A DNA stretch of 31,302 nucleotides from a virus. The notes beneath the pieces were generated by a model, which had not been told where the DNA came from, did no database searches, and saw only the letters and a program-made list of their open reading frames with translations. The stretch spans positions 1-31,302 of IMG/VR virus record IMGVR_UViG_3300040771_000180; one strand, written 5' to 3'. Positions 2,571 to 29,999 of the stretch are shown here, one piece after another (the stretch's first letter is position 1; every line of letters starts with the position of its first letter). The position numbers were made by a program, and so were the translations under genes.

Positions 2571-3890
2571 TTAATCAATTTCTTCGTTATCTATTGGGTT
2601 ATACCCTTCTGAGGCTGGATTAAATTCAAGGTAAATACCTTCTAATTTATCGGAGTTACCAGATTGTCCTGTAGTCCTCATTGGGTGATATAAATCACAA
2701 CGATATACATTAGGTTTTTCAGTTTTACTTTGAATAACAATCTCAAAGTTCTCCCTTTTATTTATTAAAATCTGGTTTTCTGCATTAAGTTCTAGTTCTT
2801 TTGGGTAGGCTCTTCGGTCCCAATCTCCTGTCCTTATTTGAAATGAGTTAAGCTCAATATTGTTTTTATAAGCTTTAATCTCTACCCATTTTCTTGGTAT
2901 AAACGTTGCATCTAAATCATTGTTTAAATTTTTACCTCTATTTGCTCTAACTATTTGTAGTGTTGGTAAGATACCAGTTCCTGGTGCTTTTTTACCTGTT
3001 AATTCGGCAACAAACAGATTCCATAATGATGGTGCTTTATAAAATGCTTGTTGTAATGTTTTATCGGCTAATATTTCATCATAGGCTAATTTGGCTTGCC
3101 TTTTCAACTCTTTATCATCAAGCTTAATATCTTTTGGTTGTTCGTCATCATCAGTCGCAGCTTTAGCCCTACCGCCACCACCAGTTATCGTGAAACGTTT
3201 GATTGGTATTGTGAATTCAATCTCAGCACCTGTTTTAACATTTTTTTTTATCGCACTAAACATTACGTTACCATTTTGTTCATAAAAATGTACTTTATTA
3301 AAATCTATTAATAAAAGACTTGATTCTTTATTTGTACCGTGTTCTGAAAATTCTACTTCAAAACCATCAGCGGCTTTATTATATACAATACCGTCATATT
3401 TTTTTGTTGAATCAAAAAACAATTGACTACCATTATTTGAATCCATAAGGTCATCATTATATATTTGTACTAACGAATCAGCATCAACATTTGTTGTGTT
3501 GTTAAAAGTAATCTGGTCAAGTTGTTGGTTATTGGAATCAAAAAGTCTAATCCCAGTAACCTTATTAATCATAAGTCTTTTACCACCACAATTAAATATA
3601 ACTTCATCATCGTACAGAAAATCGTTAAGTCTAACGTTTTGTGAACAACCTCTTGTTTTGGTACCCTTATTTAAATCAGTAATATGAAAATCACCTAAAC
3701 CAGCGAATTTAACACCAAAACGGTATGAGTTATCTTGACCATCTTTTTGTTTATTATCCACCATAAAATAGCTGGTTTCTTTATTTTTATTAAAGAAATC
3801 AATTAAATTTATTGATTTAGGTGGAACCCTAGATTCTGAAATGTATTGTTCTATTCTTTTAAATTGTGCCTCAGTCAGTTTTATTTTCAT
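2571..3890 (-). CDS. Unknown tail-block protein with possible processed N-terminus
   Basis: A 439-aa protein I do not recognise. It lies between the gp26-like/frameshift pair and the tape measure, where T4 has genes 27 and 28, so a baseplate-hub or tail-initiator role is a reasonable guess only. The first half looks beta-rich. A Gly-rich then acidic linker (GGGGRAKAATDDDEQ) sits near residue 240, followed by a helical segment and another beta-rich region. The N-terminus, MKIKLTEAQFKRIEQYISES, resembles those of two other proteins in this window and contains an I-S-E site like those cut by T4-type prohead protease. The start is supported by an ATATTTATA motif 15 nt upstream (3906-3914). The stop is 2 nt before the tape measure start, so the two genes are probably co-transcribed. 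Confidence 0.7.
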   Translation of the reverse strand: MKIKLTEAQFKRIEQYISESRVPPKSINLIDFFNKNKETSYFMVDNKQKDGQDNSYRFGVKFAGLGDFHITDLNKGTKTRGCSQNVRLNDFLYDDEVIFNCGGKRLMINKVTGIRLFDSNNQQLDQITFNNTTNVDADSLVQIYNDDLMDSNNGSQLFFDSTKKYDGIVYNKAADGFEVEFSEHGTNKESSLLLIDFNKVHFYEQNGNVMFSAIKKNVKTGAEIEFTIPIKRFTITGGGGRAKAATDDDEQPKDIKLDDKELKRQAKLAYDEILADKTLQQAFYKAPSLWNLFVAELTGKKAPGTGILPTLQIVRANRGKNLNNDLDATFIPRKWVEIKAYKNNIELNSFQIRTGDWDRRAYPKELELNAENQILINKRENFEIVIQSKTEKPNVYRCDLYHPMRTTGQSGNSDKLEGIYLEFNPASEGYNPIDNEEID

Positions 3891-3925: not shown

Positions 3926-3949
3926 AAATACTCGCAATTGCGAGTATTT
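3926..3949 (-). terminator. Hairpin terminator
   Basis: Arms AAATACTCGC (3926-3935) and GCGAGTATTT (3940-3949) pair perfectly around an AATT loop. It lies directly after the stop of the frameshift ORF (3953) and before the promoter of the 439-aa gene. The U tract is short on the minus strand, so termination strength is uncertain. Confidence 0.65.
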
Positions 3950-3952
3950 ATT

Positions 3953-4258
3953 TTATATTAATGGTATATCACCCGAATTCATTCTATTTTTTAATTCATT
4001 TCCAGTAAAAACACGTTTACCGCTACCACTAACCGATTTCTGGTCTTGGGCTTTTTCCTCTCTTGTGACGAACTCTTTAGTTAATAAACCTAAAAAGTAT
4101 CTACGTTCAAAAGTCGGCATGGATAACACATCGTTATAGGACATTCCTTTTAAATGCTGGGTACAAATATATATTTCTTCAAGTAACGGGACTTTATAGC
4201 TGGATGTTAGGCCAAAAAAATCTGATGTTAAGTGGAAGAAAGGTGGCAATAGACCCAC
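3953..4258 (-). CDS. Downstream ORF of frameshifted tail-chaperone pair (gp51 position)
   Basis: The open frame is 101 codons from a GTG at 4258, but the first 45 bp overlap the end of the gp26-like gene and this GTG has no properly spaced ribosome site. I think it is expressed mainly as a C-terminal extension of the gp26-like protein through slippage on the T7 run at 4214-4220. The segment HLKGMSYNDVLSMP then FERRYFLGLL resembles the short helical downstream ORFs (lambda T-like) of tail assembly chaperone pairs, where a W/Y-x-x-(I/V)-x-x-MP-x-(W/F/Y)ER pattern recurs. In T4 the matching position, after gene 26 and before the tape measure region, is gene 51. An independent start at the internal ATG of MSYNDV is possible, but it has no spacer after its AAGGA. 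Confidence 0.65.
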   Translation of the reverse strand: MGLLPPFFHLTSDFFGLTSSYKVPLLEEIYICTQHLKGMSYNDVLSMPTFERRYFLGLLTKEFVTREEKAQDQKSVSGSGKRVFTGNELKNRMNSGDIPLI

Positions 4259-5462
4259 CTCTTGGAGTCGGAACGTTGATAGTTAAATCAATACCGCTTT
4301 CTATTTTTTCTATGTACTTATTAAATTCATTTCCATCATGTATTCTAATTGAATCCACAAAGTCTGATATAGATTGTCTATCTCTAGTACCGTTAACTTC
4401 AACAACAGCTCTTTTTAGACTATATATCGCAGTGTTATCAACTAAAGAATCATTATCTGTGTCTCTAGAAACCAATTGTTCAACAGCATCAACATCACCA
4501 CATGTCAATAATTTAAATTTTATTACCGCACCAGACAATGGCATTGTGAATTCGAACAACCCTTCGACATCTGGTTCAGCACCAAGTTTTTTTGTTTTAA
4601 GGTCATTTAAATTAACGTCAGCATCAAAAGCTTCACCTTGTTCATCCAATATGGTTATTGGGTACATTTCACCATATGATGTTGCTCTTAACCATAACAT
4701 AATTGCGTTTCTATCACCAATATGTAAATCAGAATATCGCATATCAGTTTCCAATAATTTTCTATTTATAAGTACTTCTAAAAATTGACCACTTTGTAAT
4801 AGATTAGGACTAGTAAGGATATTCTCATCAGCTGTTGTCATAAATCCAATTCTTACGTTTTTTCTTTTATTAGCGTATAATTTACCCTCTGAAGGTAATG
4901 GGATTACATCAAAAGCACAATTATAGTTTGGTTGACTAAGTTGTACTATTTGTGGGTTAAGGTTAGGGTTGTTACTACCATAATTATCACCATAACCATT
5001 GGACGTATTCGTTGGTGGTTGTGTTGGTGTTGATGGTGTGAAATTGTTGTTATTTTCCATATGTTGTTTTTCTTTTGGTTGTAGATGTCTATTTGTCGCT
5101 GCTTCAGATAAGTTTTGATAATTTCTTGTCTGTTCTTTATTTTTCTCCAACTGCTCATCACGAAGTCTAATTTGTTCAGCATTATTGTTTGATGCAACAG
5201 CATTTGTTCTAGGTTTTTTTTCAGCTAAAGATTCATCGATAACAATACCGTTCTGCTTGTTTTGGTTGATTTGATTCATTGTTCTAGCACGCATAGCTTC
5301 CATCGCATCAGTATGTTGTTGTGGTGTGTCTGATGGTTGCTCGTTAAAAATACCATCCACTACTTCAGCTTTTTTAGCTTCATATTCGGCAATTTTAGTC
5401 GCAGTATCTTTATTCGCACCCTGTTGGTCTTTTGAAGGGAAAACATTTGGTTTAATATCCAT
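4194..5462 (-). CDS. gp26-like baseplate/tail-chaperone protein
   Basis: A 422-aa protein. Residues 1 to about 170 are polar, Gln/Asn-rich and probably disordered or coiled. From about 180 (FDVIPLPSEGKLY) to about 400 there is a compact domain resembling the T4 baseplate protein family that contains gp26: the 'LPS.G..Y....' entry, the middle LLQSGQFLEVLINRKL, the conserved helical patch IGDRNAIMLWLRATSYG, and a Phe/Thr-rich strand region ending in VEQL. In T4, gene 26 precedes gene 51 and the tape measure region, and the same order is seen here. The last codons overlap another frame at a T7 slippery run, so this is probably the upstream half of a tail-assembly-chaperone frameshift pair. Start: ATG at 5462, with a TATAAATA/ATATTTATT promoter-like cluster at 5484-5499 and a terminator upstream of that. 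Confidence 0.65.
   Translation of the reverse strand: MDIKPNVFPSKDQQGANKDTATKIAEYEAKKAEVVDGIFNEQPSDTPQQHTDAMEAMRARTMNQINQNKQNGIVIDESLAEKKPRTNAVASNNNAEQIRLRDEQLEKNKEQTRNYQNLSEAATNRHLQPKEKQHMENNNNFTPSTPTQPPTNTSNGYGDNYGSNNPNLNPQIVQLSQPNYNCAFDVIPLPSEGKLYANKRKNVRIGFMTTADENILTSPNLLQSGQFLEVLINRKLLETDMRYSDLHIGDRNAIMLWLRATSYGEMYPITILDEQGEAFDADVNLNDLKTKKLGAEPDVEGLFEFTMPLSGAVIKFKLLTCGDVDAVEQLVSRDTDNDSLVDNTAIYSLKRAVVEVNGTRDRQSISDFVDSIRIHDGNEFNKYIEKIESGIDLTINVPTPRGGSIATFLPLNIRFFWPNIQL
4214..4220 (-). other. T7 slippery site, predicted +1 (or -2) ribosomal frameshift
   Basis: On the minus strand the zero frame reads AGA TTT TTT TGG CCT AAC ATC CAG CTA TAA, so it ends six codons after the run. The overlapping ORF is in the frame reached by a +1 or -2 shift. 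tRNA-Phe in the P site on UUU can re-pair perfectly after moving +1 (UUUU) or -2 within the seven U residues. Reading then continues GGC CTA ACA into the 101-codon ORF. The fusion would be 502 aa (+1) or 503 aa (-2). Confidence 0.6.
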
Positions 5463-6126: not shown

Positions 6127-6615
6127 TTAGAAAAGTAATATTGCTCTATCAAATCTTAATGTTACAATTATCTCAGCAATACCATCATCGTCCATCGATA
6201 AATCACCAAAAGCAGCAGATGTTATCATAGTACCATCTAATAACCATTTTTCAATAACCACACCAGTAGGGTCAAGCATTTCAAGTTCAACAGGTCTTTT
6301 ATATCCAGCAGCATAACCTTGACGACCAGAAATTGATTCAGAGTGTAAACGTACCCATTCCATAATCGCCTGTGATGCTGAAGGTCCAATTGGGTCACGG
6401 AAAGTAACATCAATTGTTTCCCAGTTAAATCTACCAAGAACATAAGTTGAAGTGTTAAGAAAAGGTATCTCTACTTCACTTTGAGTTATAGTAGGTCTAG
6501 ATGCAGCAGATAACCACCATTGTTGGATTCCCAAATCCGCTGGAAATGTAATTAACCAACGATTCTTCTTTTTAGGTTCGTATGGAAGGGGCATTTTCAT
6601 TAATAAATCAGCCAT
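6127..6615 (-). CDS. Tail tube protein (gp19-like)
   Basis: A 162-aa protein, essentially the length of T4 gp19 (163 aa), which stacks as hexamers to form the inner tube of the contractile tail. Family-like features are the N-terminal RWLITFPADLG strand, the SAASRPTITQSEVEIPFLN segment, the FNWETIDVTFRDPIGPSAS core (tube proteins have a W-x-x-I/L-x-V/I-T-F-x-D signature), the helix AIMEWVRLHSE, and the paired strands LEMLDPTGVVIEKWLLDG and IIVTLRFDRA. It lies downstream of the sheath with one small gene between, which matches the sheath-then-tube order of contractile tails. Two overlapping late motifs lie 54-68 nt upstream, and the leader AAACAAAAAACAAA has no Shine-Dalgarno. Confidence 0.9.
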   Translation of the reverse strand: MADLLMKMPLPYEPKKKNRWLITFPADLGIQQWWLSAASRPTITQSEVEIPFLNTSTYVLGRFNWETIDVTFRDPIGPSASQAIMEWVRLHSESISGRQGYAAGYKRPVELEMLDPTGVVIEKWLLDGTMITSAAFGDLSMDDDGIAEIIVTLRFDRAILLF

Positions 6616-10225: not shown

Positions 10226-10378
10226 ATGGTACGAGATAAAAACTTAAAAATAACGACAAAAACCCATCTTATCCTCAAAAAATACTGTGAAGAAAATGGG
10301 TTAAAGATGTTTTCATTTGTTGAAAAACTGATAAATGATAAATGTGTACCTAAAAAAGGTATTTATGGTGAAGATTAA
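10226..10378 (+). CDS. Small ribbon-helix-helix DNA-binding protein
   Basis: A 50-aa ORF, ATG to TAA. The segment NLKITTKTHLILKKYCEENG then LKMFSFVEKLINDKC reads as an Arc/MetJ-type ribbon-helix-helix fold: a short beta strand (LKIT), a Thr-x-x-H cap, helix 1 (LILKKYCEEN), a Gly turn, and helix 2 (MFSFVEKLIND). Such proteins bind DNA as dimers and commonly act as repressors. It is the only forward gene within about 22 kb of reverse late genes, sits just upstream of the sheath promoter, and has a palindromic candidate operator 68 nt upstream. Its stop codon overlaps the stop of the convergent 158-aa gene (TTAA). A weak TAAATTTG (-7-like) lies at 10166-10173, with no well-placed TTG. The short length leaves some doubt, but the fold pattern is clear. 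Confidence 0.72.
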   Translation: MVRDKNLKITTKTHLILKKYCEENGLKMFSFVEKLINDKCVPKKGIYGED

Positions 10379-10851
10379 TTAATATTAAAAAATACTACCA
10401 TTTTCGACATTTCGGTTTTCTGTTCTGGTGACATTCGTTTACCAGAAAAATACATTATTGGTGTAAAAAATAATCCACCAAACAATGTTAACCCTATGAA
10501 TCGGCTCCATGTTGAGTAAGCCGCTGAACCCATACGCTCCATTTCTTTAGCGTAAATTAAATCAGCGTACCATTTATATTTAACATTAACCGAAACATTG
10601 TATTTCACATATAAGTAATCGTGAAGCATCGCATGAATATCAAGGTTAGGTATACTCTTTAAATCCTTAACTATTGTTGCGCCATCAAATTCACTTGGTT
10701 CAGCACAGAAGAAATCATATGCTTCTAAGTAAAGTTTTGTAACTAGATAGTTTCTACCCCAAATATTATTTAATAAGAAAATTAGTTGGTCCCTTCTATC
10801 GGCCAACCTAGCTGAATCTTGTAAGAAAAAATCGTTTTTACTTCCGAACAT
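10375..10851 (-). CDS. Unknown protein with one membrane-like segment
   Basis: A 158-aa protein I cannot assign. The first 110 residues are mixed and aromatic-rich (NNIWGRNYLVTKLYLEAYDFF; YVKYNVSVNVKYKWYADLIYAKEMERMG). A hydrophobic run, FIGLTLFGGLFFTPIMYFSG, at about residues 118-137 would fit a single transmembrane helix, followed by a positively charged patch (GKRMSPEQK) and a short hydrophobic tail (MVVFFNIN). There is no signal peptide. It lies 24 nt downstream of the GH16 fibre gene, so it belongs to that unit, and its leader AAACAAAAACAAA has no Shine-Dalgarno. It could be a virion protein touching the membrane during infection or a membrane protein made late; the sequence does not decide. 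Confidence 0.6.
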   Translation of the reverse strand: MFGSKNDFFLQDSARLADRRDQLIFLLNNIWGRNYLVTKLYLEAYDFFCAEPSEFDGATIVKDLKSIPNLDIHAMLHDYLYVKYNVSVNVKYKWYADLIYAKEMERMGSAAYSTWSRFIGLTLFGGLFFTPIMYFSGKRMSPEQKTEMSKMVVFFNIN

Positions 10852-10875: not shown

Positions 10876-13500
10876 TTATGGTTTTATGTAGTCTCCAAAT
10901 GGGTATGTAACACCTAATACTCTCTGTTGTGCTGTGAAACCACTAAATGGTGTAAATTTAAACCCCTTAACTTTAAGCTCAACGGAACCAAAATTAGCTT
11001 TCATACCACCATCAGCTGTTACCGTTCCACCAGCCCATGCATTTTCTGGGTCAGCCAACCAAGGTTTAGCTGTTAAAGGTGATGATGGGAACCATGACCC
11101 AAAAGTAAAATAACCAGCTATATTTGGTATCGTTTTAGTGACACTATTTTTTAAAACATCGTCAACATAGTAGTCAACACGTGTTGGGTACCAATCAAAC
11201 CTAATTTTATGATAATTACCATCAGCAATATTAAAACCTACAGGTGTTAACGCAATAGTATTTTCAGCAGATAATTCACCTATCCAAGTATTACATTTCA
11301 TATTATTAAGGCTTGGGTTATTATAAGTTCCACCAGTTAAATGTGACGGGAATTCTATATCTATTTCATGGTTACGAGCAATATAATTACTAACACCTTG
11401 TGGTGACAAACCTTCAGCTAGATACTCATTATACCTTGGGTCATCAAGATATATTTCGTTATAGAAAAATGTCCAAAAAGCATAAGACACGCCTAATACA
11501 TTAGGTATCAATGCGTTTACCTCATAACTACCATACCCAGTCAGTTTATTATACGATATAACCCCACCAACCCTATTTGTCCATGGTAAACCAAATTGTG
11601 GGTCTGAAGGGTTAGTATGGAATTTTTTAACTCCATTACCATCAACACCTTGAGTTGTTCCAGTATAATTATCACCATTACCTTTTAATATTAAAACACC
11701 ATCTCTTAAAAACACATTATCTGGTACAACACCACCGTTGGCACCACCCCAAGCAGTGTTTGAGAAAAGATAGTTATTTTTAAGTGTTGTTTCATCACTA
11801 AAATCGTCAATGAATTCCGTGGTTGCAATTACTGGTTTATTAACGGTAACTGGAAGACCATATGATTCCTCGATATCTGAGTATCTAAGTAATACATCAT
11901 AAATACCTTCGGTAACGTTTGGTGGTACAGTAAAAGAGATATATTCATTAGTACTATTTAATAACCAATTACTTGGTACAATTGATTCAGCTAAAGTTGT
12001 TTTGTTTTTAAAGATAATTTTAGTGTTACCCCTATTTAAATATTTTGAAAGGTTAATCGGTGTTAACGCTTGTAATTTCCAATAAACGTATTTATACCCA
12101 GTACCGATAGTTGAGTAAACAGTACCAGCAACAATAACTGTTGCTGGTGGAAAAGCGATTGCGCCAGCAACAGGTGGTGCGTATGTCCAACTACCAGAAG
12201 TAAATCTCATTGTGTCGGACCCACCAGTATCTGATGAAAAGATAAATTCCGTATCGCCAATAACAGCAGTTGTGCTAGTACCTAATAAAACATTGTTTCT
12301 ATACCATGTTAATGACCCAGCATTTGAATCGTAAATACAACCTACAATATCACCAGTAGTGAATGTATTTGCACCACCACCCCATACAACACCGTTATCT
12401 TTATTAAAAGTTCTAGAACTACTTGTTATACTCCAAGTTAATAAACCAACACCATTACCATTAGTCACCGAATCAGATGTACTACCAAGACCTAACCATT
12501 GCCATCCAGAACCAACAGCATTAATAAATACTTCGATATAGTATTTACCAGTATTACGTGATATAACCATATTACTTCTTGATGTATAATAGTTTACATC
12601 ACTAGATGTTATGGTTAAATTATTGTTACTAAGTGCATACGCTGGTGCTGTCCTAGTAGTTGACATAGCTGGTGATATAGGCGTTGTTGACCCACTAGTA
12701 AATGAAGCACCAACTCTAACTAAATTATTAAGAGATGGGGTTATTGTAACTAATGATGATGTTGTTACAGCTGTTGTTGTTCCAGATAAATACATTTTTG
12801 TTGTACCAGTTGTTCTATTAATTAAAAATGAATTCCACCCTACCTTTATTTTTCCACTCCCAGAGTCAATTAATAAAGGTGAACTACCAGTATATATTTT
12901 TTGTTGTAAATTCCCACCAGATGTTACCACTACTTCCATACCATTAGCTGCGTTACCATAAGATAAAACAGGGGTAACTGTTGACCCACTAGGTAAAGTG
13001 TTTAAATAGAAATAAGAACCTAAATTGTAATTTTTATTACCATCATTACCAAAAATACCAATTGCATCTAAATCACTAGGTAAGTTGAAATAATCATTAT
13101 TTGTTGTTATACCCAGAGCTGGTTGACCACCAAATAATTGACCAATACTTGGTGTCCCAACTAACGTACCACCAGCAAAATTTCCATATAAATCACTAAG
13201 ATTAGCAGTCAATTCAAAATAACCACCATCTGCTGGGAACATAACTTGATTTCCAACTAAATTACTTCCGTATATCGTTAATGAGTTACCCGTTACTACT
13301 TCATAACCTTCTAGGTATCGGACAAAAAAGTTACCACCTAAATCTATTGGGTTTTTAGTATATGTTAATCGCCAATACCCATTATCACCAACATATTGAA
13401 ATGTCTGGTCCTTCCATTGGTTATCAACACCAATAGACCTACTTGTTATTCCACTCCAACCACCATTAACTCCTATGTAACCATTACTATTATTTGCCAT
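10876..13500 (-). CDS. Fibre-type protein with SPRY domain and GH16 glycoside hydrolase
   Basis: An 874-aa modular protein. Residues 1 to about 300 are Gly/Ser/Thr/Asn-rich and beta-rich, as in virion fibres. Residues about 315-440 look like a SPRY/B30.2 domain: TGKYYIEVFI, a GLGS strand, RTFNKDNG, GDIVGCIYDSNAGSLTWYRN and a late phenylalanine-rich strand. Residues about 520-570 may be an Ig/IPT-like linker. From about 575 to the end is a GH16-type jelly roll with the catalytic signature HEIDIEF (E712 nucleophile, D714, E716 acid/base), preceded by GYGSYEVNALIPN and followed by YHKIRFDWYPTRVDYYVDD around W770. The EIDIE spacing is the non-bulged type of lichenases and xyloglucan endotransglycosylases. 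GH16 enzymes cut beta-1,3/1,4 glucans and galactans, so it probably degrades a host capsule or matrix polysaccharide. It lies among the fibre genes, 3 nt after an 83-aa ORF. Confidence 0.82.
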   Translation of the reverse strand: MANNSNGYIGVNGGWSGITSRSIGVDNQWKDQTFQYVGDNGYWRLTYTKNPIDLGGNFFVRYLEGYEVVTGNSLTIYGSNLVGNQVMFPADGGYFELTANLSDLYGNFAGGTLVGTPSIGQLFGGQPALGITTNNDYFNLPSDLDAIGIFGNDGNKNYNLGSYFYLNTLPSGSTVTPVLSYGNAANGMEVVVTSGGNLQQKIYTGSSPLLIDSGSGKIKVGWNSFLINRTTGTTKMYLSGTTTAVTTSSLVTITPSLNNLVRVGASFTSGSTTPISPAMSTTRTAPAYALSNNNLTITSSDVNYYTSRSNMVISRNTGKYYIEVFINAVGSGWQWLGLGSTSDSVTNGNGVGLLTWSITSSSRTFNKDNGVVWGGGANTFTTGDIVGCIYDSNAGSLTWYRNNVLLGTSTTAVIGDTEFIFSSDTGGSDTMRFTSGSWTYAPPVAGAIAFPPATVIVAGTVYSTIGTGYKYVYWKLQALTPINLSKYLNRGNTKIIFKNKTTLAESIVPSNWLLNSTNEYISFTVPPNVTEGIYDVLLRYSDIEESYGLPVTVNKPVIATTEFIDDFSDETTLKNNYLFSNTAWGGANGGVVPDNVFLRDGVLILKGNGDNYTGTTQGVDGNGVKKFHTNPSDPQFGLPWTNRVGGVISYNKLTGYGSYEVNALIPNVLGVSYAFWTFFYNEIYLDDPRYNEYLAEGLSPQGVSNYIARNHEIDIEFPSHLTGGTYNNPSLNNMKCNTWIGELSAENTIALTPVGFNIADGNYHKIRFDWYPTRVDYYVDDVLKNSVTKTIPNIAGYFTFGSWFPSSPLTAKPWLADPENAWAGGTVTADGGMKANFGSVELKVKGFKFTPFSGFTAQQRVLGVTYPFGDYIKP

Positions 13501-26191: not shown

Positions 26192-29100
26192 TTAAAAACC
26201 CCATTCATCGTCTGATTCCACTTTAGTTGCAACAACTATAATTTTATTAACTATAACTGGTTCTATTTTAATCTTACCAATTTCATTATTTATTATTGGT
26301 TCGACCAAAGTGTTACCATATGGTTCATCATCAGTATATGATTCGTAATTTACTTCATAATCATCGGGCATATCAGCAACCGAATCATCAAACTCATCAT
26401 CTAACTTAAGGTTCTCATCTTCTCTTGAGATAACATTACCCTTAGCATCAAGTACAACACCCGTATCGTCATCATCGGTTTCAACACTACCTTTTTTCTT
26501 AACAACTGTTTCTTTATTCGTTTCAATAATATTACCGTTATTTGTTTTTAAGTTACTAATCAATTCACCTATTGGTCTTTCAACAATAGCAACCTCAACG
26601 TAACTGACTGATATTGTGTCACCAGTCATAATTTTTCGCTCCATGTCGTAATCCAAATATTTCTGATACCTTTTTACATCTGTTTTAAGACCCATCAAAG
26701 TATAATACTCGTCTCGTTCAATCGCTAATTCCTCATATTTAAAAATATCGTTTAATTCGCATAAACTCTCACCCCATCTTCTAGACTTCAAAGAGTTATC
26801 ACTATCTGAAATGTCGGCAATAGCCAATATATCAATTGGTAATATGAACGTATCATACATTATGTTAATCTCATCTAACTCTAGGTGTTTAAATATGTCT
26901 TCTAAAGCCTCTTTTTCTCTTTCGATACCTTCTGCTTTGGCAATGACCATTCTAACCTTATAATCGTCTCTAAGTGCTATCCACTCATCATCATCCATAT
27001 TATTCGGAACCATATCTACTTTGTCCCAAAATTTAATCTCTTTATCTTCCATACGCATAAGGTCCTCATATGAATCTTGGTCACCAGCTTTCATTGGTAT
27101 TCCAGAAATCAACTCACACTCTTGTTTGGTAAAAATTGTTCTCTCTTTAAGTTTTTCAGTAACTTTTTTTGTTGCTTTATCTTTAATTTTAATGATGTCT
27201 AATAGAATTGTTGCACGAACATCTTCATTAAAACAAACCAATAAAGGTTTAACTTTTTTATTAAATGCATCTAAATAACGAGCAACGTTATATTCATCAG
27301 TAAACAACTCATCATTGATTGTGTCGATTCTAGCTTGAACAAATTCATAACTATCATCACCATCCTCTAGAACTCTAGTCAATGCTTTTTTAAGCACATC
27401 TAGTTCTTTGATTTTTTCAAAATCCTTCTCAACTACATTAGGTTCAATTAATTTACAGTTGAGTGTAACCGTTGACACACCCGTTTCCTTATTTTTTGTA
27501 GTTTTTAAATCACCATGAGATTTTACGACACCAGTGTTTATATAATAAATAATATCGCCTAATTTAATATCTAACTCATTTCTAAGAGCCAATTCCATAT
27601 GCGCTTGTTTAGGCATAGGGTTACCAGCTTTATTTTTCTGAGTTGCTTTCTTTCTGTAGTCAGACATTGTAATCTTAACCTTACCTTTAGAAGCTATCTT
27701 AACTAATGGTATTTGATAGTTATAGATTTTATCAACATACTCATAATAATACTGTATAAAAGAATAACCATCGCCATCTAATAACATACGAATAGATTTA
27801 CCTAAGAAATCTTCGATATAAACTGGCATCCTTTTAGACTTAACGGAGTTTCCAACTAATTTAATTTTACCACCGATATCATTAGCGTAATTCTTTCTTG
27901 CAAAGTTGATTGTCGATGAACAAATGTCGTCAATATCTAAACCCATGCGACCTTCCATATAGTGCTCGTTAAATTCAGCTAAAACGGCATCTAACCCAGT
28001 TAACTCTTTGTTTGCATCATCTGTTGTTTTCCAGTGACTCCCAATTGCGGTGTATTTAATATCGTCTATATTATCTGGAAACGAAAAGTTAAAACCATCG
28101 GTATCACCAACCAACGCCCTAAAACCATGTTTTTCAGTAAAATGTCTAACCATTAAACGTAAATACTGTCTACCTCTACAAGTTGTTTCTTCAGCTGAAT
28201 CTGTGTCACCCCAATTAAAGATATATGGCGCACCATATGAACCAAACCATGAGTTAGCTAAAATTTTAAGTGGTAATTGTTTCTTATCATATAAATTAGC
28301 CAATGCTTTATGTTTTGCTATTTCCTCGGTAAGATTAGTTATTTCACTCTCAGATAATGAAGCTTTGTTTTCAGCTAATTGTTTTTCTAATTTTTTATAT
28401 GTTTTTTTCTCTTTACCGTTAAGGAATTTAAATTTATCACGTGTATCAACTACATAGGTTAACATACCTTGCATAACACCACTAATATCTAACAAAGGGA
28501 AAATACCATGTGTTAATTGAATTTTAGGGTATAATGCAGCATAATCTAGTTTAACAACATTCTTAGCGTAACCTACCTCTAATAAACGAGCCAAACCACC
28601 TGTAAATTCACGTTTAGATTGTGTTTCTGGTATAGCTAAACCATTTTCATATGACCAAGCGGCCATAATCAATTTCCACTGACCAGCAGTACCCATTGTT
28701 GAACTTCTTTGGAATGAAGTAGGTAACATTTTACCAATTAAGAAAGATGCTTGATTGAATAAATTATCAATTTGTTCTGTCTCCCATAAATCATCACATA
28801 AGTAACGTTGTACAATATAATCACCTTTTACTACCACGTAGTTAGTTTTTAAAGGTTTTTTATCTGTTATCATATAATAATCACCATTGGTGTCATTAAA
28901 TGCATAAGAATTTACCTTATCGGCCCAAGTTGTGTTAATTTTATCACCAGGAACATAAACCCTATTAGGTTTTGCAATCTCAGAGTATTGTGTAATATAC
29001 TTTAACCCCCAAGCCTTGATTTCTGAGTTTATCGCCATTGCTCTCCGAACAGCATGTGATATGTCAATAATATTATACCCAAACATGTGTGTCTGTTCAT

Positions 29101-29953
29101 ACCTCTCAGTATCACCACCAAATTTAACTGTTGCTGGTTTACGTTTAATTTTAGATATTCTATTTAGGGTGATTGCAACATCAGTAACGTCCATGTTAAG
29201 TCTTTCAGCACGCTGAAAAATATAGGGCCAGTCAAATGATTCTGAATTATAACCAGTTATAATATCGGGCTGTATTGCATCAATCACTTTAAAAAACTTC
29301 TCGATGTTATCTCTTTCAGATTGTCTGTTTTCAAGGCCAGTCTTACCAAGTGTTTCCAAGACTCCTTCAAACCCTCTGTTATCACGAATACCTATTTGGA
29401 AAATAGCGTTAGATGAGGCAAATAAACCCTCGGTTTCTAAGTCAAATTGAAGTCTATGCACATCATCATAATCGTCCATCCCTTTGAATAGTCTTTTACC
29501 CGTTTGGATTAAAAACTGTTCTACTGGACTAAATGTTACGAAAAGTCTTCTGAATTCCTCGTTAAAACAGTCAACACCACCATATTTAAAGAAATTGATT
29601 AAGTTGTTGTAAGAGTGTGTACAAGTAGCTAGGTATTTATAACCATTTGCTAACCGTTCTGGTGAGTCACCATTATCATCACAAGTTCTAAGTTTTGTGA
29701 GTTTTACACCATATTTCTGGCAAGCCTCAATTATTTTGAGTCGTTTACCGCCATAAATTAATTGAGTTACATCTTCCTTAAACCATAAAAAAGGTTTAAA
29801 TTTATGTTCAACCATTTTTTTATCCTCATTCGGGTCGTTAATTACCAAAGTTACGGTAGCTTTATCGTACCCACCTTCTACAGCTACGATATATTTTTGT
29901 GGGTCCGAACCTTCTAAAAAATTCTCAATTTTACTATTTTCTATTTTACTCAT
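26192..29953 (-). CDS. Family B DNA polymerase
   Basis: Replicative polymerase with 3'-5' exonuclease. Numbering from the longer possible start at 29992: Exo I DLETEG (D184, E186), Exo II GYNSESFDWP (N249, D254), Exo III YLCDD (Y397, D401), polymerase motif A DYAALYPKI (D483), motif B KILANSWFG (K576, N580), motif C VGDTDGF (D630, D632). The usual DxxSLYPS and YGDTDS are altered to DYAALYPKI and VGDTDGF. T4 gp43 is 898 aa; this is 1253 aa, with long parts after motif C and an acidic tail (about 1160-1266) ending SDDEWGF, which may bind a clamp or partner. I place the start at the ATG at 29953 because a good host-type promoter overlaps the upstream ATG at 29992 (14 residues longer). The polymerase is transcribed away from the fibre genes to its right. 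Confidence 0.93.
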   Translation of the reverse strand: MSKIENSKIENFLEGSDPQKYIVAVEGGYDKATVTLVINDPNEDKKMVEHKFKPFLWFKEDVTQLIYGGKRLKIIEACQKYGVKLTKLRTCDDNGDSPERLANGYKYLATCTHSYNNLINFFKYGGVDCFNEEFRRLFVTFSPVEQFLIQTGKRLFKGMDDYDDVHRLQFDLETEGLFASSNAIFQIGIRDNRGFEGVLETLGKTGLENRQSERDNIEKFFKVIDAIQPDIITGYNSESFDWPYIFQRAERLNMDVTDVAITLNRISKIKRKPATVKFGGDTERYEQTHMFGYNIIDISHAVRRAMAINSEIKAWGLKYITQYSEIAKPNRVYVPGDKINTTWADKVNSYAFNDTNGDYYMITDKKPLKTNYVVVKGDYIVQRYLCDDLWETEQIDNLFNQASFLIGKMLPTSFQRSSTMGTAGQWKLIMAAWSYENGLAIPETQSKREFTGGLARLLEVGYAKNVVKLDYAALYPKIQLTHGIFPLLDISGVMQGMLTYVVDTRDKFKFLNGKEKKTYKKLEKQLAENKASLSESEITNLTEEIAKHKALANLYDKKQLPLKILANSWFGSYGAPYIFNWGDTDSAEETTCRGRQYLRLMVRHFTEKHGFRALVGDTDGFNFSFPDNIDDIKYTAIGSHWKTTDDANKELTGLDAVLAEFNEHYMEGRMGLDIDDICSSTINFARKNYANDIGGKIKLVGNSVKSKRMPVYIEDFLGKSIRMLLDGDGYSFIQYYYEYVDKIYNYQIPLVKIASKGKVKITMSDYRKKATQKNKAGNPMPKQAHMELALRNELDIKLGDIIYYINTGVVKSHGDLKTTKNKETGVSTVTLNCKLIEPNVVEKDFEKIKELDVLKKALTRVLEDGDDSYEFVQARIDTINDELFTDEYNVARYLDAFNKKVKPLLVCFNEDVRATILLDIIKIKDKATKKVTEKLKERTIFTKQECELISGIPMKAGDQDSYEDLMRMEDKEIKFWDKVDMVPNNMDDDEWIALRDDYKVRMVIAKAEGIEREKEALEDIFKHLELDEINIMYDTFILPIDILAIADISDSDNSLKSRRWGESLCELNDIFKYEELAIERDEYYTLMGLKTDVKRYQKYLDYDMERKIMTGDTISVSYVEVAIVERPIGELISNLKTNNGNIIETNKETVVKKKGSVETDDDDTGVVLDAKGNVISREDENLKLDDEFDDSVADMPDDYEVNYESYTDDEPYGNTLVEPIINNEIGKIKIEPVIVNKIIVVATKVESDDEWGF

Positions 29954-29968
29954 ATTATGTATTTTGTG

Positions 29969-29999
29969 CAAAACTACTACATAAAATCCCATTTAGCAA
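29969..29999 (-). promoter_or_regulatory. Bacteroidota-type promoter of the DNA polymerase gene
   Basis: On the minus strand TTG (29997-29999), a 20-nt spacer, then TAGTTTTG (29969-29976), a full match to the Bacteroidota -33 TTG / -7 TAnnTTTG pattern. The expected transcript start is near 29964, giving a leader of about 10 nt to the ATG at 29953. A variant phage motif (ATATTTATG, 30008-30016) lies just upstream. Confidence 0.6.

Follow-up and report, generated by a model that had tools for sequence, protein, structure and literature searches.

The stretch of viral DNA analysed here (IMG/VR record IMGVR_UViG_3300040771_000180, positions 1 to 31,302, hereafter "the window", 31,302 nucleotides [nt] in full) carries on its minus strand a gp26-like gene whose 3' end overlaps a second open reading frame (ORF). 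Our analysis indicates that this gene very probably makes two tail assembly chaperones (TACs) of the lambda G/GT type from one start—a shorter product, TAC-N, and a longer one, TAC-NC—by a programmed +1 ribosomal frameshift at the site TTT_TTT_TGG. The reading was reached by comparison, and draws on homology and gene position as well as on a conserved frame relation, the site itself, a codon bias and the switch in coding frame seen there. A first-pass annotation had called a gp26-like ORF and an overlapping +1-frame ORF at a run of seven T residues (T7), and had proposed a programmed shift fusing the chaperone to a C-terminal extension. Both ORFs are present on the minus strand (5462-4194 and 4258-3953, the latter in the +1 frame), and the comparative data support the shift.

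At the junction, the zero frame reads ATC AGA TTT TTT TGG CCT AAC ATC CAG CTA TAA and the +1 frame reads FFGLTSSYKVPLLEEIYI; one base forward, the overlapping ORF encodes FFGLTSSYKVPLLEEIYICTQHLKGMSYNDVLSMPTFERRYF. In the proposed mechanism, most ribosomes would stay in the zero frame through TTT_TTT_TGG and terminate at the TAA that lies 24 nt from the start of the site, giving TAC-N of 422 amino acids (aa). At the second Phe codon, a fraction of ribosomes would instead advance by one extra base. In the window, the P-site tRNA can re-pair from UUU to UUU one base downstream; peptidyl-tRNA-Phe would thereby slip from UUU (4217-4215) to the overlapping UUU (4216-4214), with the A site waiting at UGG. 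The next codon would then be GGC, followed by about 86 more codons, to give TAC-NC with the junction R-F-F-G-L-T. By analogy with lambda G/GT, many copies of TAC-N would coat the tape measure protein and few copies of TAC-NC would recruit the tube protein. Intracellular shifting and its frequency are inferred, as are the movement of the tRNA and the role in assembly. A sequencing error or a broken gene might produce a similar picture, and one base fewer in the run would indeed yield a single ORF. However, a second, longer record of the same virus (a 119,658-bp contig, which may share reads with the window) matches the window exactly over 11,462 nt, the same frame relation occurs in 57 other loci and the frame changes at this place in 77 + 79 loci of the wider family, making such an artefact extremely improbable.

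The closest relatives of the window (the window clade) were collected by a search with the overlapping ORF that returned 58 IMG/VR loci, one of them from the same virus; these loci were found through peptides of the C-terminal ORF, one of which ended at the run. Relative to the gp26-like frame, the C-terminal ORF is shifted by +1 in all 58 loci, as it is in the window. The junction set consisted of the window and 57 loci, of which 18/58 were duplicates, leaving 40 distinct junctions (L001 and L003, from the same virus as the window, were dropped). A comparison of the T7 run and both frames in relatives, put forward in the first-pass annotation, thus found the layout kept in 57/57 further loci and TTTTTTTGGCCT invariant in all 40 distinct junctions, with the zero-frame stop always 18 to 30 nt past the first T. 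Where the base preceding the run belongs to an Asn codon, that codon is AAC in 9/9 window-clade cases, set against a third-base T in 6,666 of 16,408 codons of these genes and in 163 of 505 codons before Phe. The A-site codon, TGG, accounts for 44 of the 16,408 upstream codons of the same genes.

We further examined codon usage in the gp26 core of 39 sequences (L050 was dropped as too short), scoring columns at least 95% conserved in amino acid and degenerate in the code. Synonymous change was seen in 58 of 63 such columns, and the five columns that showed none all fall within 11 columns at the site: TTT and CTT about 20 nt before it, TTT TTT at the site itself and the CCT that directly follows TGG. 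Both TTT and TTC occur in the other conserved Phe columns, at ratios of 27:12, 36:3 and 34:4. Upstream of the run there is also a 5' element, CTTCCnnTTA (4238-4229, minus strand), which lies 9 to 18 nt before the run and is invariant at the nucleotide level in 40/40 distinct junctions, beyond what the protein requires; no RNA structure was found that explains this invariance. Mean variability by codon position before the site was 0.54, 0.42 and 1.01 bits, as expected for the zero frame; after the site it was 0.40, 0.34 and 1.26 bits in the doubly read stretch and 0.74, 0.47 and 1.27 bits beyond it, which is the +1-frame pattern. The coding frame therefore changes at the site.

These data also bear on whether the second ORF might be a separate gene, starting internally at GTG 4258 or TTG 4249 in the +1 frame with the aid of the AGAGGTGGG stretch, behind which that TTG stands. 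The first-pass annotation had held that the ORF lacks a good start, which is true of 21/40 distinct junctions—in these, no ATG, GTG or TTG (the only codons scored) occurs in the +1 frame from its last stop up to the site—and does not apply to the window, which is among the 19/40 that do have one. In addition, in the +1 frame the invariant bases of TTT CTT CCN NTT occupy second codon positions, and that frame may therefore be under some constraint upstream of the run. On the other side, start codons before the shift are likewise missing from 27 of 60 distinct loci of a second +1 group (A1, below), a stop cuts the +1 frame just before -26 in 19/40 junctions, the variability before the run follows the zero frame, and any start past the site would remove much of the conserved FFGLTSxYKxPLLEEIYI in most loci. 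An internal start is thus a very unlikely source of the second product. A Shine-Dalgarno role for AGAGGTGGG in frameshifting was also considered and rejected: the stretch lies 34 to 42 nt before the run, and L052 does without it. Known -1 and prfB frameshift cases have shorter Shine-Dalgarno spacings.

To gain a broader view of the family, we inspected the gene end in known phages by eye. A further open ORF was seen in the +1 frame in eight phages (Mel-JY01, immuto, LR756508, LIS04, GXN1, RM378, SP-15 and phiXF1) and in the -1 frame in seven (XacN1, PA5oct, LR756511, Melnitz, S-CAM9, S-PRM1 and AG-345-F15). Two larger groups were then gathered through N-domain peptides, without use of the site: A1, with an SP-15/LIS04-type query (the best 80 of at least 513 confirmed stretches), and A2, with a cyanophage-type query (the best 80 of at least 594). 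Of these, 77 and 79 loci, respectively, were readable, since three A1 loci and one A2 locus ran off the end or were too short. A hidden Markov model (HMM) of the window-clade C domain, built from no A1 or A2 locus, matched the +1 frame of 73/77 A1 loci (with no match in their -1 frame) and the -1 frame of 15/79 A2 loci. The A1 C-domain HMM recognised the +1 frame of all its own members (77/77 A1 loci) and, outside its membership, the -1 frame of 79/79 A2 loci; the cyanophage C-domain HMM matched the -1 frame of its own 79/79 A2 loci and the +1 frame of 8/77 A1 loci. None of these HMMs gave a match in frame 0 or in one reverse frame of the A1 and A2 loci. Two loci stood out: L081 (A1) was hit by the A1 HMM in both the +1 and -1 frames, and L093 was assigned to -1 by the longest-frame rule, yet carries its C domain in +1 by HMM. 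In A2, no ATG, GTG or TTG precedes the shift in the new frame in 78/78 distinct loci. The second domain thus follows the same Phe-Phe codons in the +1 frame in A1 and in the -1 frame in cyanophage-type members, and the sister group appears to slip backwards at the same spot. A scan of cellular genomes for the C domain yielded 44 stretches that fit a pattern, of which none was confirmed as a relative.

For the direction of slip, we compared 107 distinct +1 members (40 from the window clade, 60 from A1 and 7 known phages) with 84 distinct -1 members (78 from A2 and 6 known phages); all counts of site variants refer to sequences, not independent events. The +1 sites were TTT_TTT_TGG (77), TTC_TTT_TGG (8), TTT_TTT_CGT (5), TTT_CTT_TGG (5), TTT_CTA_TGG (3) and TTC_TTT_CGT (2), with seven others occurring once each. 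The -1 sites were TTT_TTC (83) and TTT_TTT (1), a T preceding each; L070, which the motif script missed, reads T_TTT_TTT by eye. Hence the heptamer T_TTT_TTN is present in 84/84 -1 members and in 0/107 +1 members. The base before TTT_TTT in the 86 +1 members that have this pair is C in 34, G in 32, A in 20 and T in none, and it is because of this base alone that these members lack the heptamer. In 102/107 +1 members, the second codon permits a +1 move onto a Phe codon (TTT-Y or CTT-T).

The first-pass annotation had left the direction as +1 or -2. The same variants favour +1 and disfavour a -2 slip, which would add one extra Phe at the junction. The T7 run of the window does allow the latter, from TTT 4217-4215 back to TTT 4219-4217; moreover, the first Phe codon is TTT in 39/39 window-clade sequences, which +1 slippage does not need, and phage Mu is described in PMC5009743 as using -2. 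Yet relatives with the same frame relation carry TTC_TTT_TGG, TTT_CTT_TGG or TTC_TTT_CGT. In these, slipping by -2 would leave tRNA-Phe on TCT or tRNA-Leu on TTC, and slipping by +1 leads to TTT or TTC; we therefore consider a -2 slip very unlikely. These variants also speak against slippage of RNA polymerase on the T7 run, by which mRNAs with six U residues would encode the fusion directly. The run of seven is kept in 40/40 window-clade junctions, as such slippage might demand, but members with only four (TTC_TTT_TGG) or three (TTT_CTT_TGG and TTC_TTT_CGT) T residues in the run keep this frame relation, and the preceding base, which should not matter to the polymerase, is never T in the 86 TTT_TTT members. 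Polymerase slippage accordingly appears highly improbable.

Returning to ribosomal frameshifting, the two mirror-image groups suggest a further reading, towards which we lean by a narrow measure: that one Phe-Phe pair in the T4 gp26/51 family is a switchable shift site, at which the preceding base and the third bases set -1 (T_TTT_TTY) versus +1 (V_TTT_TTT_Y). Lineages would have crossed between both directions while keeping the same trans-frame domain, selection would remove a T before the site under +1, and the T4 branch would have retired the shift by gene duplication, with TTC_TTT_GAG as a possible remnant. That sequence is the Phe-Phe pair near the end of T4 gp26 (L067:5803-6429), and it suits neither direction of slip. 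At the corresponding place, Phe-Phe is absent from three other Straboviridae gp26 genes; the occurrence of the putative remnant in only 1/4 of these genes counts against a switchable site. In a quick tree of 124 rows, the +1 label required two changes and the -1 label two, and gp26 adjoined gp51 on the cyanophage side with a support of 87. Several long branches (phiXF1, RM378, PA5oct and others) make the number of direction switches uncertain.

The relationship to T4 was pursued through profile comparisons. The 422-aa gp26-like protein of the window matches PF12322 (T4_baseplate; E=3.7e-8, residues 239-399, above the family cut-off) and phrog_150 (baseplate hub; E=2.7e-10, residues 190-400). 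T4 gp26 and gp51 both belong to PF12322 (E=8.8e-64 and 3.9e-52), and phrog_150 covers gp26 to position 235 and gp51 to position 280 of 282, so that gp51 consists of a gp26-like domain plus a C domain. The gp26 and gp51 groups align at 99.3% in hhalign, and cyanophage C domains match the C end of gp51 at 97.0%. For the N domain, the chain of profiles runs from window to A1 (100%), A1 to cyanophage (97.9%), cyanophage to gp26 (98.6%) and cyanophage to gp51 (96.5%); for the C domain, it runs through the A1 and cyanophage groups to gp51 at 99.1, 62.6 and 97.0%. Judging from these sequence comparisons, the link between the window clade and T4 is one made by PF12322 itself and by the chain through A1 and the cyanophages, and gp26 looks like the counterpart of the short product and gp51 like that of the long, frameshifted one. 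The T4-type two-gene layout, with separate full-length short and long genes, was not encountered; the layout of the window is of the frameshift type. Regarding a possible second copy, one PF12322 match was found in each of 3/6 records and none in the other three although the gene is present, the model being too insensitive to exclude a second copy. Vladimirov is said to have described in 2022 that frameshifting is kept in several T4-like groups and that T4 uses genes 26 and 51.

From a structural perspective, an AF2 model of the N core (residues 185-422) reached a pLDDT of 89.3. It had 52 matches at E<=0.001 among the predicted viral proteins of BFVD, many named baseplate hub, and no PDB match at that threshold. 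After re-alignment to 988 PDB chains, the best was the HK97 tail assembly chaperone 2ob9 (Z 4.4, 86 of 107 residues, root-mean-square deviation 5.2; next Z 3.2), which in Foldseek ranked 20 with E 2.4. The C-domain model is predicted to be helical (pLDDT 77) and had no BFVD match at E<=0.001. The core is preceded in the window by an N-terminal extension of about 184 residues (5462-4911), low-complexity by eye, which T4 gp26 (208 aa) and the immuto protein (246 aa) do not have.

Several observations weigh against a programmed +1 shift in a T4-related chaperone gene. The +1 frame of the window contains possible starts, GTG at -38 and TTG at -29 from the run. A stimulator was not identified: consensus folding of six stretches around the site gave no conserved RNA structure (0 to -4.2 kcal/mol), and the window's own fold is ordinary (z -0.98, with 35 of 200 shuffles as good), its hairpin AGGTGG/CCACCT being absent from the consensus fold. 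Two variants, TTT_CTA (4/107) and TTT_TTT_AGT (1/107), do not permit perfect re-pairing at the second codon, and the slip there would therefore take place at the first codon or be imperfect. Directly compared, the window-clade N core scored 0.0, 0.1 and 0.3% against cyanophage N, gp26 and gp51, and its C domain 19.0% against the cyanophage C domain and 11.4% against that of gp51, for which the A1 C domain scored 1.3%. PF12322 misses immuto and Mel-JY01, although phrog_150 does reach both. The modelled likeness to HK97 2ob9 is suggestive, no more, and too weak to stand alone. Finally, one gene (439 aa, with no assigned function) separates the chaperone from the probable tape measure gene.

The genomic context of the chaperone gene is summarised in Table 1. 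Tail genes on the minus strand follow the order sheath, a 147-aa protein, tube, a 175-aa protein, the gp26-like protein, the 439-aa protein and a 790-aa protein, placing the chaperone between the tube and the probable tape measure, the latter assigned from its sequence character together with a weak hit (E=1.6e-4 over 119 residues) on the 1348-aa ORF located after the chaperone gene in Microcystis phage Mel-JY01. At E<=0.01, the 790-aa protein had no match to a PHROG or Pfam family. In LIS04 and SP-15, the annotated order is tube, TAC, tape measure, with the chaperone directly before the tape measure apart from a small ORF or gap; the same holds before the annotated tape measure of immuto, where the preceding gene is annotated as a tail completion protein.

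Table 1. Positions in the window of the proposed frameshift gene, its signals and neighbouring tail genes.
Feature	Positions	Strand	Basis or remark
TAC-N, zero-frame ORF, gp26-like, 422 aa	4194..5462	minus	PF12322 and phrog_150 matches
TAC-C, candidate +1-frame extension, 88 aa from FFGLTSSYK, motif MSYNDVLSMPTFERRYF	3953..4219 (stop counted in)	minus	alignment and window-clade profile
Predicted shift site TTT_TTT_TGG	4212..4220 (T7 run 4220-4214)	minus	TTTTTTTGGCCT invariant in 40/40 distinct junctions
Guard base before TTT TTT (A in the window)	4221	minus	never T in +1 members with TTT TTT
Zero-frame stop TAA	4194..4196	minus	24 nt past the first T of the run
Terminator-like stem-loop, directly 3' of the +1-frame stop	3926..3949	minus	consensus match only; plus strand also called
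439-aa protein, between chaperone and probable tape measure	2571..3890	minus	ORF
Probable tape measure protein, 790 aa	196..2568	minus	by eye coiled-coil-like N part and hydrophobic stretches in C part; weak match
Tail tube protein	6127..6615	minus	phrog_4542, E=2.3e-26
Tail sheath protein, 938 aa	7256..10072	minus	phrog_23, E=1.9e-59

Some further features of the window deserve mention. The sheath protein is long, and the displayed family matches begin only at about residue 649. Upstream of it, a 158-aa protein (10375-10851) matches phrog_1158, labelled tail assembly chaperone (E=1e-4); it may be a second chaperone, or the family may be mislabelled. An 874-aa tail-region protein (10876-13500) has GH16 glycosyl hydrolase (E=5.4e-7) and SPRY (E=2.5e-6) matches, and a 1266-aa protein (26192-29992) matches phage DNA polymerase families (phrog_262, E=2.4e-67).

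Sites of +1 frameshifting are not easily recognised, and the analysis contributes a clearly delimited set of predicted ones. With it goes a homologous -1 set that uses the same codons, so that the determinants of slippage direction become testable by one- or two-base changes. It also bears on gene models, because in the records examined the C domain is either unannotated, as in LIS04 and S-PRM1, or given as a small stand-alone ORF. By their coordinates, such ORFs lie in the C-domain frame in immuto (L062:5827-5937), SP-15 (L068:2821-2940), S-CAM9 (L073:3211-3384), Melnitz (L071:3256-3399), Mel-JY01 (L061:6007-6243) and RM378 (L066:3623-3799), and they are probably parts of the frameshift product.

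Judged by the open literature we searched, what is new is the +1 direction at this site, together with its conservation and the -1 group that mirrors it; neither the +1 version nor the direction code turned up in searches limited to open papers. The class of frameshifted TACs and its T4 connection were already known. The 2025 Adele paper (PMC12846349, citing Vladimirov 2022) mentions poly-T signals for -1 shifts in the TAC genes that T4-like phages carry, and the PRFect paper (PMC10885494, citing Vladimirov, Gautam and Davidson 2022) states that some T4-like phages have a short TAC gene alongside a longer fusion gene. The view in the first-pass annotation that the T4 26/51 pair and frameshifted chaperones are one system was thus right as to the link, although not novel, and its description of the window gene as a physically fused 26/51 is not quite accurate, gp51 itself being a gp26-like domain plus a C domain.

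Among known systems, lambda G/GT shares the layout: by the description in PMC5009743 and PMC2147016, two products arise from one start and share an N domain, the shift lies near the 3' end, and the gene follows the tube and precedes the tape measure region. Lambda, however, shifts by -1, whereas the window clade is predicted to shift by +1 at a Phe-Phe-Trp site and has an N domain of the PF12322 type; the likeness drawn here is one of layout. According to PMC5009743, shifts that enter the +1 frame also produce the tail chaperones of HSTV-2 (very likely +1) and Mu (-2), parallels drawn here from their description. Phage 0305phi8-36 similarly has short and long chaperone forms, gp143 and gp144, but these are two genes, and its authors (PMC2147016) found no frameshift. 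For the site itself, the UCC_UUU_CGU of influenza A PA-X is comparable: its UUU_CGU, at which tRNA-Phe moves from UUU to UUC, recurs in 7/107 +1 members (e.g., TTC_TTT_CGT in GXN1), and PMC3498833 reports that mass spectrometry showed the direction to be +1. PA-X nevertheless belongs to a eukaryotic virus and an unrelated gene, and the window has UUU_UGG. The hub assembly chaperones gp26 and gp51 of T4 share PF12322 with the window protein, and gp51 its combination of a gp26-like domain with a C domain, but in T4 the two are separate genes on opposite strands. Finally, gp26 and the short "gp51" ORF of Kyanoviridae (e.g., S-CAM9) represent the same gene family, with a Phe-Phe site at the same place and a homologous C domain—which there, unlike in the window, lies in the -1 frame behind T_TTT_TTC.

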